A stretch of 64,000 nt of DNA from Halpernia frigidisoli (lineage in GTDB: Bacteria > Bacteroidota > Bacteroidia > Flavobacteriales > Weeksellaceae): positions 558,001-622,000 of the forward strand of contig NZ_FOQT01000001.1 of assembly GCF_900113805.1 (NCBI RefSeq), read 5' to 3'. Under the pieces are notes generated by a model that was given only the letters and a program-made list of their open reading frames with translations, had not been told where the DNA came from and did not search any database. The first letter of the stretch is position 1. Each line of letters opens with the position of its first letter. The translations under genes and the position numbers were made by a program. Positions 14,217 through 63,866 of this stretch are shown piece by piece.

Positions 14217-14858
14217 ATGGCAACAATCACAAAAGGAATTCTGGGTGGCATCTCTGGTACAATAGGTACCGTTGTGGGTGCTAACTTCCGGGGGAAAGAC
14301 ATTCTCCGCAGCCGGCCAAAAAAGAGCAGCAAGCTGCCCACTGAAAAGCAACTATTGCAGCAGGCAAAGTTCAAGCTGGTCGTCCAATTTATGCAACCGC
14401 TTAAATTTATCCAGAGCCGGTATTTTGGGCAAAACAGCGGTGCAAAATCCCGGGTCAATCTGGCAGTATCTTACATGCTGGATAATGCCATCTCTGTGGT
14501 GCTGGGGGTTCCGGAGCTGCTTTACAACAAAGTACTGATCACCAAAGGCGACCTGGCGGGTTTTCAAAATCTGACGGCGGCACCGGTGGCGGGACAAAAA
14601 ATTGAGTTCAACTGGGTGGATAACAGTCTGCAGGGCAATGCCAGTGCTGATGATATCGTTAATGTGGTTTGCTACAGTGAAGATCTTGGCAACTTTGAGA
14701 TCTTTCAGAATATCGCAGTGCGCGGTGATCTGTCCGCCGAAATGACGCTGCCTTTATCGTATCAGGCAAAAGCCGTCAGCGTGTGGGTGTATTTTAATAA
14801 TACCAAAGAAAACCTCGCCTGCAACAGCAATTACGTCGGACTGCTTACCATTCTTTAA
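14217..14858 (+). CDS. DUF6266 family protein
   Basis: 213 residues from the ATG at 14217. I reject the in-frame ATG at 14157 because it adds a 20-residue tail that falls in the presumed promoter region. The start ATITKGILGGISGTIGTVVG and the following FRGKDILRSRPKKSS basic segment are typical of DUF6266, a Bacteroidota family of unknown function. QLLQQAKFKLVVQFMQPL follows as a conserved helix. The C-terminal half (about 120-213) looks like a beta-sandwich. Family members often occur near phage-like or accessory genes; no biochemical role is known to me. It has its own terminator. Confidence 0.8.
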   Translation: MATITKGILGGISGTIGTVVGANFRGKDILRSRPKKSSKLPTEKQLLQQAKFKLVVQFMQPLKFIQSRYFGQNSGAKSRVNLAVSYMLDNAISVVLGVPELLYNKVLITKGDLAGFQNLTAAPVAGQKIEFNWVDNSLQGNASADDIVNVVCYSEDLGNFEIFQNIAVRGDLSAEMTLPLSYQAKAVSVWVYFNNTKENLACNSNYVGLLTIL

Positions 14859-14892: not shown

Positions 14893-14923
14893 GTGGGTGA
14901 TTTAGTATTTCACCTAACCCGCC

Positions 14924-15094
14924 TGTCATTGCGAGGAACGAAGCAATCCTTTGCAGTATAGTTATACACAAATTATGAGATTGCTTCGTTCCTCGCAATG
15001 ACAATAGGTGTTCCTCGCAAAAACAATTCGTGTTCGTCGCAAAAACAATTCGTGTTCGTCGCAATAATAATTCATCTTCCTTGCAATAAAGGCG
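14924..15094. repeat. REP-type palindrome cluster, copy 1 (left of GIY-YIG gene)
   Basis: A perfect 25-bp inverted repeat: the left arm starts TGTCATTGCGAGGAACG at 14924, the right arm ends at 15003, and the loop is 30 nt. The right arm continues as degenerate tandem units of 22 nt (variants of CTCGCAATGACAATAGGTG, drifting to GTCGCAAAAACAATTCGTG) up to about 15094. It fills the gap between the DUF6266 terminator and the GIY-YIG gene. Apparent open frames here are translations of the repeat. Confidence 0.9.
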
Positions 15095-15157
15095 TGCAAA
15101 GACTGCTACCCAACTTCTAATAATAAATTTTTAGTACATTCGCTTAAACATTCAAAT

Positions 15158-15478
15158 ATGAAACCCGGTTTTATATACATCCTTACTAATAAATATAATA
15201 CAACACTTTATGTAGGAGTTACTTCAAATTTGCCAAAAAGAATAAAAGATCATAAAGAAAAACGATATGAGAATTCATTCAGTAGCAGATATAATCTTAC
15301 GAAATTGGTTTATTGGGAAGCATTTCAGGAAATAGGAGATGCTATTGCCCGTGAAAAGCAAATAAAAGGAGGATCGAGAAAAAATAAACTCAATTTAATA
15401 AATAATTTTAATGCTGAATGGAAAGATCTGTATGATGAAATTACAATAGAATTTGAAAGTTTAGGAGCAGGTTTTTAA
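15158..15478 (+). CDS. Single-domain GIY-YIG nuclease
   Basis: 106 residues, almost entirely one GIY-YIG domain of the UvrC/YhbQ (URI) type. The motif is FIYIL (5-9) and YVG (18-20), with R28, H32 and the catalytic metal-binding E66 in AIAREKQIKGG, so all active-site residues are present. There is no second DNA-binding domain. Stand-alone members are widespread and mostly uncharacterised; they cut or nick DNA in the homing and repair relatives. The gene is bracketed by two REP-type palindrome clusters, which raises the question of a link between nuclease and repeat. No operon partner. Confidence 0.88.
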   Translation: MKPGFIYILTNKYNTTLYVGVTSNLPKRIKDHKEKRYENSFSSRYNLTKLVYWEAFQEIGDAIAREKQIKGGSRKNKLNLINNFNAEWKDLYDEITIEFESLGAGF

Positions 15479-15538
15479 TATTCAACATCATTACAAAACT
15501 CATGAATATTATTGTAGCTGGAAAGCGATCGCACAAAC

Positions 15539-15737
15539 TGTCATTGCGAGGTACTTTCACTGTCATTGCGAGGTACTTTCATTGTCATTGCGAGGAACTT
15601 TCACTGTCATTGCGAGGTACGAAGCAATCCTCTGCGATATGGTTGCGCACACATGATGAGATTGCTTCGTGCCTCGCAATGACGATATGTGTTCCTCGCA
15701 ATGACGATATGTGTACTTCGCAATGACGACATATGTT
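15539..15737. repeat. REP-type palindrome cluster, copy 2 (right of GIY-YIG gene)
   Basis: Four left units TGTCATTGCGAGGTACTTTC start at 15539, 15561, 15583 and 15605 with an exact 22-nt period. After a central loop, three right units (CTCGCAATGACGATATGTG type) follow with the same 22-nt period. The two sides are mirror images, so the whole block can fold into a long cruciform. It differs from copy 1 by unit number on each side. Confidence 0.9.
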
Positions 15738-15804
15738 TCTTGCTACGACAGCCTGTGTACCATGGAATAACAGATATTAAATAATAGCCAATTATAACCA
15801 ACTA

Positions 15805-18800
15805 ATGACCATTCAATCTTACCTCACCAACATCAACCAAAGATACCTAATGGGAAACGCCACGGAACATACGTTTCGGGGTGATCTGCAGCAGTTGATT
15901 GAAAGTCTGGTGCCGGAAATCAGGGCGACCAACGAACCAAAAAGACAATCTTGTGGTGCGCCGGATTATATCCTCACCAAAAAAGATATCCCCGTTGGTT
16001 TTATTGAAGCAAAAGATGTAGGCGACAAAGATCTGGATGGCAAAAAAAGATCAGGCAACAAGGAACAGTTTGACCGGTATAAAGCTTCCTTGGGTAATCT
16101 TATCTTTACAGATTATGTAGATTTTCATTTGTATAATGATGGGGTGTTTGTGACCAAAGTTGCCATTGGAGAAATTACAGATAAAGGTATTGTGCCGCTT
16201 CCGCAGAATTTTGCACAGTTCGAAAACCTCATCAAAGATTTTTGTGTACACATTGGGCAAAATATTAAAAGTCCAAAAAAACTGGCTGAGATGATGGCAG
16301 GAAAGGCTCGACTCCTTTCTGATGTTATCGCTAAAGCTTTGACGAGCGATGAAACGCACAACGAAAATAGTACGCTGAAAGAACAAATGACGGCTTTCAA
16401 AAGTATTTTGATCCACGATATTACGCCTAAAGGTTTTGCAGATGTTTATGCGCAGACTATTGCGTACGGAATGTTTGCAGCACGTTTGCATGATCCTACT
16501 TTAAAAACCTTCAGTAGACAGGAAGCGGCAGAACTGATCCCAAAATCCAATCCGTTTTTGCGCAAACTCTTCGGCTATATCGCCGGTCCTGATATTGACG
16601 ACCGCATCAAATGGATCGTGGATAATCTGGCGGAAATATTTTTGGCTTGTAATGTAGAAGAGATCCTGAAAAACTATGGTAAGACGACCAAAATGGAAGA
16701 TCCCATCATTCATTTTTATGAAACTTTCCTGGCGGAATATGATCCGGCTTTGCGAAAAGCGCGTGGCGTTTGGTACACCCCTGCGCCAGTGGTCAATTTT
16801 ATTGTGCGTGCGGTAGATGATATTCTAAAAACGGAATTTGATTTGCCCCAAGGTTTGGCAGATACGAGCAAAACAAAAATTAAGGTTGATGTAAATGGAA
16901 AGAAAGTAGAAAAAGAAGTGCATAAAGTGCAGATCTTAGATCCTGCAACGGGAACGGGAACTTTCTTGGCGGAAGTCATTAAACACGTCAACAAAAAATT
17001 TAAAGGACAGGAAGGCATCTGGAGCAGTTATGTAGAAAATAATCTCTTACCAAGATTAAATGGTTTTGAATTATTGATGGCAAGTTATGCAATGGCGCAT
17101 TTGAAGTTGGATCTGCTGTTGAAAGAAACAGGTTTTAAAGCGACCAAAGAGCAACGAACACGTGTTTATCTCACCAATAGTTTAGAAGAGCACCATCCTG
17201 ATACAGGAACTTTGTTTGCCAGTTGGTTGAGCACCGAAGCGAATGAAGCCAATCATATAAAAAGAGATACGCCGGTGATGTGTGTAATCGGTAATCCGCC
17301 ATATTCCTCAAGTAGTACTAACAATGGAAAATGGATAGAAAATTTACTGAACGATTATAAGAAAAATCTTAAAGAAACAAGTTATAATTCATTATCAGAT
17401 GATTATGTAAAATTTATTAAATATGGACAACACTTTATTGATAAAAATGAATATGGAATTTTAGCTTATATTTCTAATAATAGTTTTATTGATGGTGTTA
17501 CTCATAGGCAAATGAGAAAAAATCTTTTACAATCGTTTGATAAAATTTACATTTTAGATTTACATGGTAATTCAAAGAAGAAAGAAACTAGTCCCGACGG
17601 ATCAATAGATCAAAACGTTTTTGATATTATGCAAGGAGTTTCAATAAATATCTTTATTAAAAACATAAATAATAAAACAAAAAAACTTGGTCAGGTTTTT
17701 CACTCTAACTTATATGGTAATAGAGAACATAAATATAATTTTTTAAATAAAAACAATTTAAATGAAATTAATTGGGATTGTCTAAAATATAATGATCCTT
17801 ATTACTACTTTGTTCCTCGTGATTATAAAACTTTAGATTTATATCGAAAAGGATTTGGAATTGAGCAACTTTTTAATACTAACGCAACAGGAATTAAAAC
17901 CGAACGAGATTCTTTTACAATAAAAATAAAGGAAGGCGAATTAGATGAAGTTTTGTATGATCTTGAAAACAACAATCTTGAAAACATTAGATTTAAACAT
18001 AATTTGCAATCGGATGGTAGAGACTGGACATTAAAAAATGCTAAAGATGATGTTCTACAAAATAAAAAGGGTATAAAATCAATAATTCAATATAGACCTT
18101 TTGACTACAGACATACTTATTATACAAGTAAATCTAAAGGGTTTATGGCATATCCACGAAATAAAATTATGGATCATTTAATTCATAAAAATATTGCATT
18201 TGTAACAACACGATTAAATCGGGGGCTTAGTTCTGGATATAGTTTTATAAGTAAAAATATACTTGATTTACATTTATTAGATAGTGCAGCAGATTCATTG
18301 CAAACTTTTCCGCTTTATCTTTATCCAGAAAATAACGGACAACTAACATTTGAATCTTCAGAAAGAACACCTAATCTTAATCAAGAAATTGTAAAAGAAA
18401 TAGAAGAAAAGTTAGGTTTACAATTTACTAATGAGAAAGAAAAAGAAGAGGATTGCTTCGTGCCTCGCAATGACGGTTCGCAGGCAATGCCTCGCAATAA
18501 CACCGACAACCATCAACCATCAACAGACAACCAAACCTTTGCGCCAATTGATCTTTTAGATTATATCTACGCCGTGCTGCATTCTCCCACTTATCGGGAG
18601 AAATACAAAGAGTTTTTGAAGATCGATTTTCCCAGAGTTCCCTATCCAAAAGACGCAGAAACTTTTTGGAAACTCGTGCAATTGGGTGGCGAAATACGGC
18701 AACTGCATTTGTTGGAAGCGGCGCAAACGGAAAATTATATTACCTCTTATCCAAAAGATGGCAGTAATATGATCACCACCAAAGTCGGAAAAAAAGACTG

Positions 18801-19047
18801 GGAACTCTATGATGAAGACCAACAATTGGGCAGAATATGGATCAACGAATCACAGTATTTTGACAAGATCCCTCTTACTGCGTGGGAATTTTACATCGGT
18901 GGCTATCAACCCGCCCAAAAATGGCTAAAAGACCGACAGGGAAGAACGCTGGAGTTTGAAGATATTTTGCATTACCATAAAATTATTGTGGCTTTGTTTG
19001 AAACGGATAGGTCGATGAAGGAGATTGATCTGATTGAAATAGAATAA
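15805..19047 (+). CDS. Single-chain type IIG/ISP-like restriction endonuclease-methyltransferase
   Basis: 1080 residues. The N-terminus has a PD-(D/E)xK nuclease site: P53-D54, then E68 and K70 in FIEAK. The N6-adenine methyltransferase core follows: motif I DPATGTGTF at 379-387 and motif IV NPPY at 497-500. The C-terminal part carries the ISP-type specificity region (IIQYRPFDYRHTYY, then MAYPRNKIM). There is no helicase domain, unlike full type ISP enzymes of about 1570 residues, so it should cut and methylate as one chain. Codons from about 17320 to 18450 (residues 505-880) are much more AT-rich than the flanks, as expected for an exchanged target-recognition domain. Residues 883-899 are encoded by a REP repeat. 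No separate methylase or specificity gene is adjacent. Recognition site unknown. Confidence 0.88.
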   Translation: MTIQSYLTNINQRYLMGNATEHTFRGDLQQLIESLVPEIRATNEPKRQSCGAPDYILTKKDIPVGFIEAKDVGDKDLDGKKRSGNKEQFDRYKASLGNLIFTDYVDFHLYNDGVFVTKVAIGEITDKGIVPLPQNFAQFENLIKDFCVHIGQNIKSPKKLAEMMAGKARLLSDVIAKALTSDETHNENSTLKEQMTAFKSILIHDITPKGFADVYAQTIAYGMFAARLHDPTLKTFSRQEAAELIPKSNPFLRKLFGYIAGPDIDDRIKWIVDNLAEIFLACNVEEILKNYGKTTKMEDPIIHFYETFLAEYDPALRKARGVWYTPAPVVNFIVRAVDDILKTEFDLPQGLADTSKTKIKVDVNGKKVEKEVHKVQILDPATGTGTFLAEVIKHVNKKFKGQEGIWSSYVENNLLPRLNGFELLMASYAMAHLKLDLLLKETGFKATKEQRTRVYLTNSLEEHHPDTGTLFASWLSTEANEANHIKRDTPVMCVIGNPPYSSSSTNNGKWIENLLNDYKKNLKETSYNSLSDDYVKFIKYGQHFIDKNEYGILAYISNNSFIDGVTHRQMRKNLLQSFDKIYILDLHGNSKKKETSPDGSIDQNVFDIMQGVSINIFIKNINNKTKKLGQVFHSNLYGNREHKYNFLNKNNLNEINWDCLKYNDPYYYFVPRDYKTLDLYRKGFGIEQLFNTNATGIKTERDSFTIKIKEGELDEVLYDLENNNLENIRFKHNLQSDGRDWTLKNAKDDVLQNKKGIKSIIQYRPFDYRHTYYTSKSKGFMAYPRNKIMDHLIHKNIAFVTTRLNRGLSSGYSFISKNILDLHLLDSAADSLQTFPLYLYPENNGQLTFESSERTPNLNQEIVKEIEEKLGLQFTNEKEKEEDCFVPRNDGSQAMPRNNTDNHQPSTDNQTFAPIDLLDYIYAVLHSPTYREKYKEFLKIDFPRVPYPKDAETFWKLVQLGGEIRQLHLLEAAQTENYITSYPKDGSNMITTKVGKKDWELYDEDQQLGRIWINESQYFDKIPLTAWEFYIGGYQPAQKWLKDRQGRTLEFEDILHYHKIIVALFETDRSMKEIDLIEIE
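18451..18502. repeat. REP right arm inside the restriction gene
   Basis: GATTGCTTCGTGCCTCGCAA at 18451 and a second CTCGCAATAAC at 18491 match the right arm of the palindromes at 14924 and 15539. It is read in frame as DCFVPRNDGSQAMPRNN, between the AT-rich specificity block and the conserved C-terminal part, so the insertion is tolerated. Confidence 0.85.
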
Positions 19048-63840: not shown

Positions 63841-63866
63841 GGATTGCTTCGTTCCTCGCAATGACG
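63841..63866. repeat. Solo REP right arm
   Basis: GGATTGCTTCGTTCCTCGCA and following bases match the right arm at 14979-15003 almost exactly. It lies 3 nt upstream of a terminator hairpin. Confidence 0.85.

Follow-up and report, generated by a model that had tools for sequence, protein, structure and literature searches.

A GIY-YIG gene between two palindrome clusters

The window analysed here is a 64,000-nucleotide stretch of the Halpernia frigidisoli genome. Between a DUF6266 gene, which ends at position 14858, and a Type ISP restriction-modification gene (15805-19047), it contains an 814-bp stretch made up of two palindrome clusters and one gene. The gene encodes a GIY-YIG protein of 106 residues, and both clusters flanking it are built from the TGTCATTGCGAGG palindrome. 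In the window, the palindrome unit consists of TGTC or CGTC followed by ATTGCGAGG(A/T/C)ACGAAGCAAT, and its hairpin has a stem of 5 bp, a loop of 10 nt and the tails CCTT and CTCA. The features are the following:

14924..15003, no strand: left complete head-to-head palindrome, two TGTCATTGCGAGGAACGAAGCAATC arms with tags outward (inverted repeat of 25 nt, 100% complementary; motif scan)
15004..15089, no strand: decaying ladder of single arms in ~22-nt steps, right of the left palindrome (sequence; repeat match)
15158..15478, + strand: GIY-YIG nuclease gene, 106 aa, active-site residues conserved (ORF, Pfam PF01541, alignment, predicted model with pLDDT 92)
15539..15604, + strand: three truncated 22-nt left units, each a tag plus the first stem half (repeat family, spacing 22, 22, 22)
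15605..15684, no strand: right complete head-to-head palindrome (motif scan, sequence)
15685..15737, - strand: more 22-nt right units, tags outward, decaying (sequence, inverted repeats)
18452..18475, - strand: lone unit of the window palindrome, in frame inside the Type ISP restriction-modification ORF (motif scan, ORF translation)
63843..63866, - strand: lone unit of the window palindrome (motif scan)

Based on the repeat search and the motif scan, each of the complete structures (14924-15003 and 15605-15684) is composed of two units placed head-to-head with their tags pointing outward. The tags (TGTC/CGTC with ATTGC...GCAAT) lie at 14924 and 15605 on the + strand and at 14979-15003 and 15661-15684 on the - strand. 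The arms of the left cluster (14924-14948 and 14979-15003) are 25 nt each, 100% complementary and separated by a spacer of 30 nt. In the right cluster, the complete palindrome is extended outward by single arms at 22-nt intervals, three on its left and two on its right, so that four left units start at 15539, 15561, 15583 and 15605 and right units are found at about 15669, 15691 and 15713. The initial annotation had described the gene as bracketed by two palindrome clusters, with perfect 25-nt arms on the left, four left and three right units on the right and a 22-nt period, and had placed the only complete palindromes of the window at this locus. All of this was borne out, with exact spacings of 22, 22 and 22 for the left units of the right cluster and only the two single units listed above elsewhere in the window. 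Beyond that description, the left cluster also carries a decaying ladder on its right side, the positions 14923-15089 and 15604-15770 match each other as a direct repeat (74%), and the genome contains three more bracketed GIY-YIG genes (see below).

Genome-wide, the core TCATTGCGAGG occurs 29 times, against one occurrence of the same pattern read backwards, and thus the window palindrome is not a product of chance. The genome has 24 tags, several of which form + and - pairs. The lone unit at 18452-18475 contributes residues such as ...DCFVPRND... to the restriction-modification protein; Rickettsia palindromic elements are likewise reported within proteins in the available part of PMC10969869.

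The window protein matches the Pfam GIY-YIG domain (PF01541) with an E-value of 4.3e-17. Across 77 aligned sequences, H32, E66 and N85 do not vary and conservation is at least 90% for Y7, Y18 and R28, so the protein carries the conserved Y, Y, R, H, E and N of the GIY-YIG superfamily, and the active site that had been read as intact from the sequence (Y7, Y18, R28, H32, E66) is confirmed. The AlphaFold model (pLDDT 92, pTM 0.84) has as closest solved fold the UPF0213 protein BH0048 (1zg2; Foldseek E 3e-4), the sole match below 0.001, followed by the branched-DNA nuclease Slx1 (E 0.01-0.1, TM-score ~0.5) and the N-terminal domain of UvrC. Profile match and predicted fold therefore liken the protein to the UPF0213 or single-domain GIY-YIG proteins (1zg2, 1ywl) and to Slx1, which works together with Slx4. 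The group of the window nuclease is presumably COG2827. In the literature searched, no palindrome partner is described for the UPF0213 group, and no paper names both YhbQ and GIY-YIG.

Bracketed genes in the host genome and across phyla

The host genome contains three further small GIY-YIG genes with E-values no higher than 0.001, of which one is interrupted by stops. These are bracketed by inverted repeats starting with TGTCATT, of 36 nt (89% complementary), 37 nt (97%) and 27 nt (100%), the broken copy sitting within the intact 27-nt repeats. As a result, all four small GIY-YIG genes found in the genome are bracketed by inverted TGTCATT repeats. Two of the four repeats are nearly alike (CCGTAGG and CCGAAGG), while the third and the one of the window differ. 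Given this shared architecture, the question was widened from a single locus to a family.

The window locus is one case of a much wider pairing, which recurs in many bacterial phyla. In a set of 13 loci taken from 33 records of a plasmid collection with a relative, the bracketing repeats clearly exceed those of shifted intervals in nine, namely in Azospirillum, Novosphingobium, N. gonorrhoeae, S. meliloti, Aeromonas, Shinella, Sinorhizobium K101 and two Sphingobium loci. No bracketing repeat was found in the Photobacterium and Rhizobium K1/93 loci of this set; those of Planktothrix and Spirosoma have a weak bracketing score, yet tagged hairpins are readable in their flanks. For a set covering many phyla, the best 80 of at least 575 relatives by protein similarity were taken, of which 79 were usable (L152 was left out because of a short flank). 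The query for this set was built from six of the plasmid-collection loci, most of them already seen to be flanked by palindromes, and another query consisted of the three intact genes of the host genome.

Within 300 bp of the gene, outward-pointing (C/T)GTC-tagged hairpins are present upstream in 47, downstream in 53 and on both sides in 37 of the 79 loci of the many-phyla set. The expectation per side is 0.033, i.e., ~2.6 of 79, as calculated from the distant parts of the same loci (48 hits in 254,693 bp), and a scrambled tag is found upstream in one locus, downstream in one and on both sides in none. Inward-pointing units are also frequent (33/79 and 29/79), as expected if complete head-to-head pairs stand on each side. 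In 14 of the 79 loci, the tagged-hairpin motif detects nothing within 300 bp, whether outward- or inward-pointing; six of those have inverted repeats scoring 16 or more. Inverted repeats that bracket the gene and reach this score were identified in 39/79 loci, compared with 23/2863 shifted intervals of the same length in the same loci and 51/1000 combinations of left and right flanks from different loci. Since palindromes prefer intergenic DNA, the comparison was also made within non-coding DNA alone, where they are 10.5-12.1 times denser near the gene than far from it (the range depends on the ORF cutoff). Chance and plain intergenic clustering are therefore rejected by the shifted-interval, scrambled-tag and non-coding-only comparisons. 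The initial annotation had made its reading depend on a positional link between REPs and GIY-YIG genes in other strains, and this link is found.

The host family was covered with 120 genomes, at least 74 of which have a match, and 80 regions were taken beyond those loci. Outward hairpins occur upstream in 48, downstream in 53 and on both sides in 31 of 136 rows, which include fragments, split pseudogenes and three spurious rows scoring near 0. Inverted repeats scoring 16 or more bracket 48 of the 84 host-family genes outside the YILYS and DGSYYTGST clades (see below), versus 2/649 shifted intervals. Some loci have more elaborate arrangements. At L046 (G107:C25:85366-86485), head-to-head pairs are repeated with a 172-bp period on one side of the GIY-YIG gene, i.e., whole pairs are amplified and not arms. 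In Rhizobium bangladeshense (L128/L250), two GIY-YIG genes with their palindromes stand in tandem, ~90% identical over 544 bp.

Nuclease clades, empty sites and copy number

The sequence of the palindrome tracks the clade of the nuclease and not the host genome. For 57 genes from 35 genomes, protein and palindrome similarity are correlated with a Mantel r of 0.688, which none of 5000 permutations reached (highest 0.205). Similar nucleases in different genomes have a mean palindrome similarity of 0.52 (278 pairs), compared with 0.23 for unlike nucleases in one genome (27 pairs) and 0.17 for unlike nucleases across genomes (1284 pairs). The first six stem bases are identical to those at the closest protein from another genome in 34 of the 57 cases, versus 6.4 expected. 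A palindrome of another clade is, for instance, TGTCATTCCGTAGGAATC. The match between left and right repeats averages 19.3 within an element, 15.0 between elements of the same clade and 9.6 between clades, and the label "flanked" requires 15 changes on a tree of 114 genes versus 38 when shuffled, with none of 500 shuffles as low.

Two clades depart from the GTC tag. In the DGSYYTGST clade, the GTC-tag motif is found in 0/12 tree rows, and GGTG palindromes stand upstream in 11/12 and downstream in 12/12, against 1/74 and 0/74 in other clades; as the GGTG motif was defined after viewing the same DGSYYTGST loci, these counts are post hoc. In one locus, another 15 hits were seen at a greater distance. 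Inverted repeats scoring 16 or more occur in 3/12 genes of this clade versus 0/36 shifted intervals. The GGTG palindromes, of the GGTGGTTGAGCGGAGTCGAAACCACC type, were seen around L185, L192, L205, L207, L211, L212, L214, L215, L216, L218, L219 and L221, and at L185 they form a longer array. The YILYS clade is a natural negative, with a tagged hairpin in 1/26 tree rows. Inverted repeats scoring 16 or more are nonetheless raised in this clade (7/27 versus 7/463 shifted intervals), so that this score lacks specificity when used by itself.

A link of all small GIY-YIG genes to GTC-tagged palindromes was rejected on account of the YILYS rows and of the tRNA genes, which lie near the nuclease in 8/10 scanned loci of this clade (YILYSxxLDxYYxG; L227, L234, L237, L240, L222, L232, L239, L037). 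Several YILYS loci are tandem arrays with a period of ~340-470 bp, in which tRNA genes or tRNA-like fragments alternate with the nuclease. This arrangement recalls the tRNA-linked phage enzyme SegB, as described in the accessible part of PMC13096335.

The presence or absence of a whole block at the same site, which marks a mobile element, is seen for the sister elements L002, Azospirillum and Sphingobium, and not for the element of the window itself, for the right flank of which the one other genus genome compared gave no match. In the case of L002, 472 bp comprising gene and repeats are absent from the syntenic site in the only other genus genome compared; the flanks are 79.8 and 79.7% identical between both genomes and abut in the one without the element. 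L003 and L035 represent one shared insertion site, and therefore no empty site could be obtained from either. The Azospirillum lipoferum gene sits between sufB and sufC, flanked on either side by a palindrome pair, and the three aligned relatives, out of at least 11 records covering ~70% of the query, have neither gene nor palindromes at this site. In Sphingobium, the gene is found between fnrL and a response regulator in three aligned strains (with a one-base gap in TYG73). Among three of at least five partially matching records, the empty site has one compact palindrome in TYG64 and TYG74 and none in TYG72. The TYG64 palindrome is identical to a fusion of the two bracketing palindromes at their common CCCCGGG, and may be either a deletion product or an earlier target. 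Two Sphingobium copies of the gene differ by three synonymous changes and one non-synonymous change, too few to be of use. No target-site duplication stood out in the aligned empty sites.

A Parcubacteria genome contains two copies 2.5 kb apart that are 75% identical over ~354 bp. Their alignment runs from one palindrome's tag to the other's, its end falling no more than one base away from the latter tag (which reads AGTC in one copy); a third copy matches only over the inner 273 bp. In the 33 genomes searched through such loci, between 1 and 10 relatives were found in each. In Calothrix PCC 7103 (L279, L280), a GIY-YIG gene and its surroundings, at least 2.25 kb in all, are present twice, 2.7 Mb apart and 99% identical. 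These loci were dropped as transposition copies, since the entire 2.25 kb is duplicated and there is no tagged hairpin; the region is perhaps a larger duplicated element.

Whether REPs are commoner in genomes with the gene, as the reading of the initial annotation implied, was answered differently for two palindromes. Excluding the copies adjacent to the gene, the window palindrome has a mean of 5.07 copies in the 14 genomes with the clade versus 0.53 in the 106 without it (p 1.2e-6, a value that ignores phylogeny). Within one genus (g20), this association is weak (p 0.026). For both palindromes, the counts were compiled manually, with manual assignment of clade membership, among the matches listed, and of the copies next to the gene. 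The second palindrome, CCGNAGG, has overall a mean of 15.5 copies in the 11 genomes with its clade versus 2.77 in the 109 without it, and within g20 the presence of the clade does not predict its copies (p 0.34). Also, CCGNAGG copies range from 0 to 39 among the 12 genomes of genus g8, with the matching clade absent among the matches listed, and many palindromes are present in G077 (22), G081 (19) and G029 (9), with GIY-YIG absent among the matches listed. Thus, palindromes either persist, or are moved by something else, in genomes that do not now have the gene.

The ladders were analysed for 625 complete palindromes from the loci used here, an extra copy being defined as ten of the first bases of the palindrome found again 14-60 nt away. 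An extra copy lies outside the tag in 54 palindromes, coming from 25 loci, and beyond the inner end in 23. Among the 54, the commonest spacing is 22 nt, and 33 are at 16-27 nt. Ladders with similar spacings occur in a cyanobacterium (23), an Anaerolineae bacterium (23-24) and a gammaproteobacterium (21-22); such recurrence across phyla makes the ladder look like a feature of the system. The initial annotation had attributed the 22-nt steps to replication slippage or to repair at a cruciform; slippage, repair and repeated cutting may each give rise to them. The ladder of the window would then be a recurrent product that extends from the tagged end, consistent with, though no proof of, repeated cutting there.

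A putative GIY-YIG counterpart of RAYT elements

The REP sequences were split in the 2013 survey of Di Nocera into GTAG repeats, linked to RAYT, and CGTC repeats; the latter often carry TGTC, start their stem with A-T, are mostly arranged as head-to-head dimers, were found in five phyla and include dRS3, RPE-4 and RPE-6, and four named families have a stem of 8-9 bp, a loop of 4-5 nt and a tail that is mostly CCA (PMC3733652, in the portion available). The same portion states that CGTC REPs "apparently lack a dedicated transposase" and that no tyrosine transposase gene was found flanked by them. In the available text of a 2025 REP survey (PMC12306157) and a 2018 HUH survey (PMC6006769), CGTC appears only in the citation of the 2013 survey. 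With its (C/T)GTC tag, A-T stem start, head-to-head dimers and dispersal in the genome, the window palindrome resembles the CGTC REPs; however, its 5-bp stem and 10-nt loop fall outside the four named families, and the unit is thus a relative and not a member of them. Four of the organisms named in the survey (A. lipoferum, S. meliloti, N. aromaticivorans and Neisseria; PMC3733652) have GIY-YIG genes between CGTC-type repeats. Among the matches listed in a search of the literature by titles and abstracts, with bioRxiv outside its range, no earlier report links GIY-YIG genes with REP palindromes.

We consider it probable, from comparative sequence evidence, that the locus is a member of a widespread group of very small selfish elements, each consisting of a single-domain GIY-YIG gene and its cognate (C/T)GTC-tagged palindrome. 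Both the cutting by the nuclease and the movement of the element are inferred. In such an element, the Slx1-like nuclease would recognise its own palindrome when extruded as a hairpin or cruciform, and would cut near the tag. Repair or replication of the cut palindromes would copy them, giving rise to dispersed REPs and to ladders, and sometimes the gene, as a palindrome-gene-palindrome unit, would be copied elsewhere too. The gene-free palindromes would then be deletion derivatives or non-autonomous copies, comparable to MITEs in relation to transposons. Counting against such an element are the genomes rich in palindromes with GIY-YIG absent among the matches listed, the CCGNAGG copy numbers within g20 and g8, the 14 loci without a tagged hairpin by the motif, the YILYS clade, and the aligned empty sites, in which no target-site duplication stood out.

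The data suggest the Slx1-like nuclease as the enzyme of the CGTC-type REPs, in a role like that of RAYT but filled by an unrelated protein. The initial annotation had put a GIY-YIG protein in the place of RAYT. This interpretation is supported in part, by the association, the co-variation with the clade and the absence of the whole unit in relatives. As in RAYT/REPtron/REPIN systems, described in the portion of PMC3733652 at hand, tagged palindromes stand on both sides of a nuclease gene and are also present elsewhere in many copies without it. Two differences set the window locus apart: its gene encodes a GIY-YIG protein and not an HUH tyrosine (Y1) transposase, and its tags are TGTC/CGTC and not GTAG. 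To our knowledge, no covalent tyrosine chemistry is to be expected of a GIY-YIG element, unlike RAYT.

Several other explanations have to be weighed against this element. The gene could encode a free-standing homing endonuclease for which the palindrome is the cutting target and not the end of an element, with the repair of breaks copying the gene in or amplifying its flanks. The intron-less gene resembles those of Seg enzymes, from which it differs in standing between palindromes that are also dispersed as genomic repeats. SegB provides a precedent, since its breaks lead by homologous recombination to tandem amplification of the neighbourhood (PMC13096335, in the part available). Ladders and clusters do surround the genes, and the gene-less Sphingobium strains TYG64 and TYG74 (not TYG72) have a compact palindrome exactly at the site. 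The TYG64 palindrome is, however, equally explained by a deletion between the CCCCGGG repeats of the bracketing palindromes. Moreover, the three aligned Azospirillum empty sites have no palindrome, and the flanks of L002 abut. We regard homing as unlikely. A function in host housekeeping, in which the nuclease would remove or resolve harmful cruciforms and hairpins while the palindromes regulate or protect the gene and are not spread by it, is suggested by the likeness of the predicted structure to Slx1 and by the conserved active site. We find it quite improbable, given that the genes are scattered, with several clades within one genome, and absent at the syntenic site of a relative, that a broken copy lies within intact 27-nt repeats, and that palindrome and clade go together.

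It is also conceivable that a RAYT or another transposase elsewhere moves the palindromes and that the GIY-YIG gene is only cargo. The Y1_Tnp profile, the only one used here, indeed has one short match in the genome. This match lies ~550 kb from the window locus, and no palindrome of the family was found by motif scan in the 3.2-kb locus around it, so that a Y1 transposase partner in the host genome was rejected. Together with the lack of CGTC-flanked tyrosine transposase genes in the consulted part of the 2013 survey (PMC3733652), this makes cargo very improbable. Finally, REPs are found mainly between or downstream of coding regions (same part of PMC3733652), and palindromes gathering in intergenic DNA might coincide with a gene that is merely there too. 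Such a coincidence is hardly credible in view of the enrichment within non-coding DNA alone, of the clade-specific palindrome sequence, and of a left-right match that is higher within elements than in cross pairs of the same clade.

Returning to the selfish element, we lean, by a little, towards a still broader proposal, in which such loci form a class of mobile DNA present in many phyla, of ~350-520 bp without ladders, whose GIY-YIG nuclease would move itself and its palindromes by hairpin cutting. This class would explain how the CGTC REPs arose and spread (dRS3, RPE-4, RPE-6, as well as TGTCATT repeats in Bacteroidota and elsewhere), and it would be to GIY-YIG enzymes what RAYT/REP is to HUH enzymes. 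The (C/T)GTC palindromes occur in many bacteria and can lie inside genes, and their mover was left open by the 2013 survey in the portion available (PMC3733652). A nuclease that lies between the palindromes, co-varies with them and shares their presence or absence turns this question into an assay of one protein of 100 residues. The natural pairs of nuclease and palindrome are also on offer for studies of hairpin recognition. If the proposal is true, GIY-YIG enzymes gain a role in spreading bacterial elements outside of introns and phages, and the elements would be among the smallest that encode their own enzyme.
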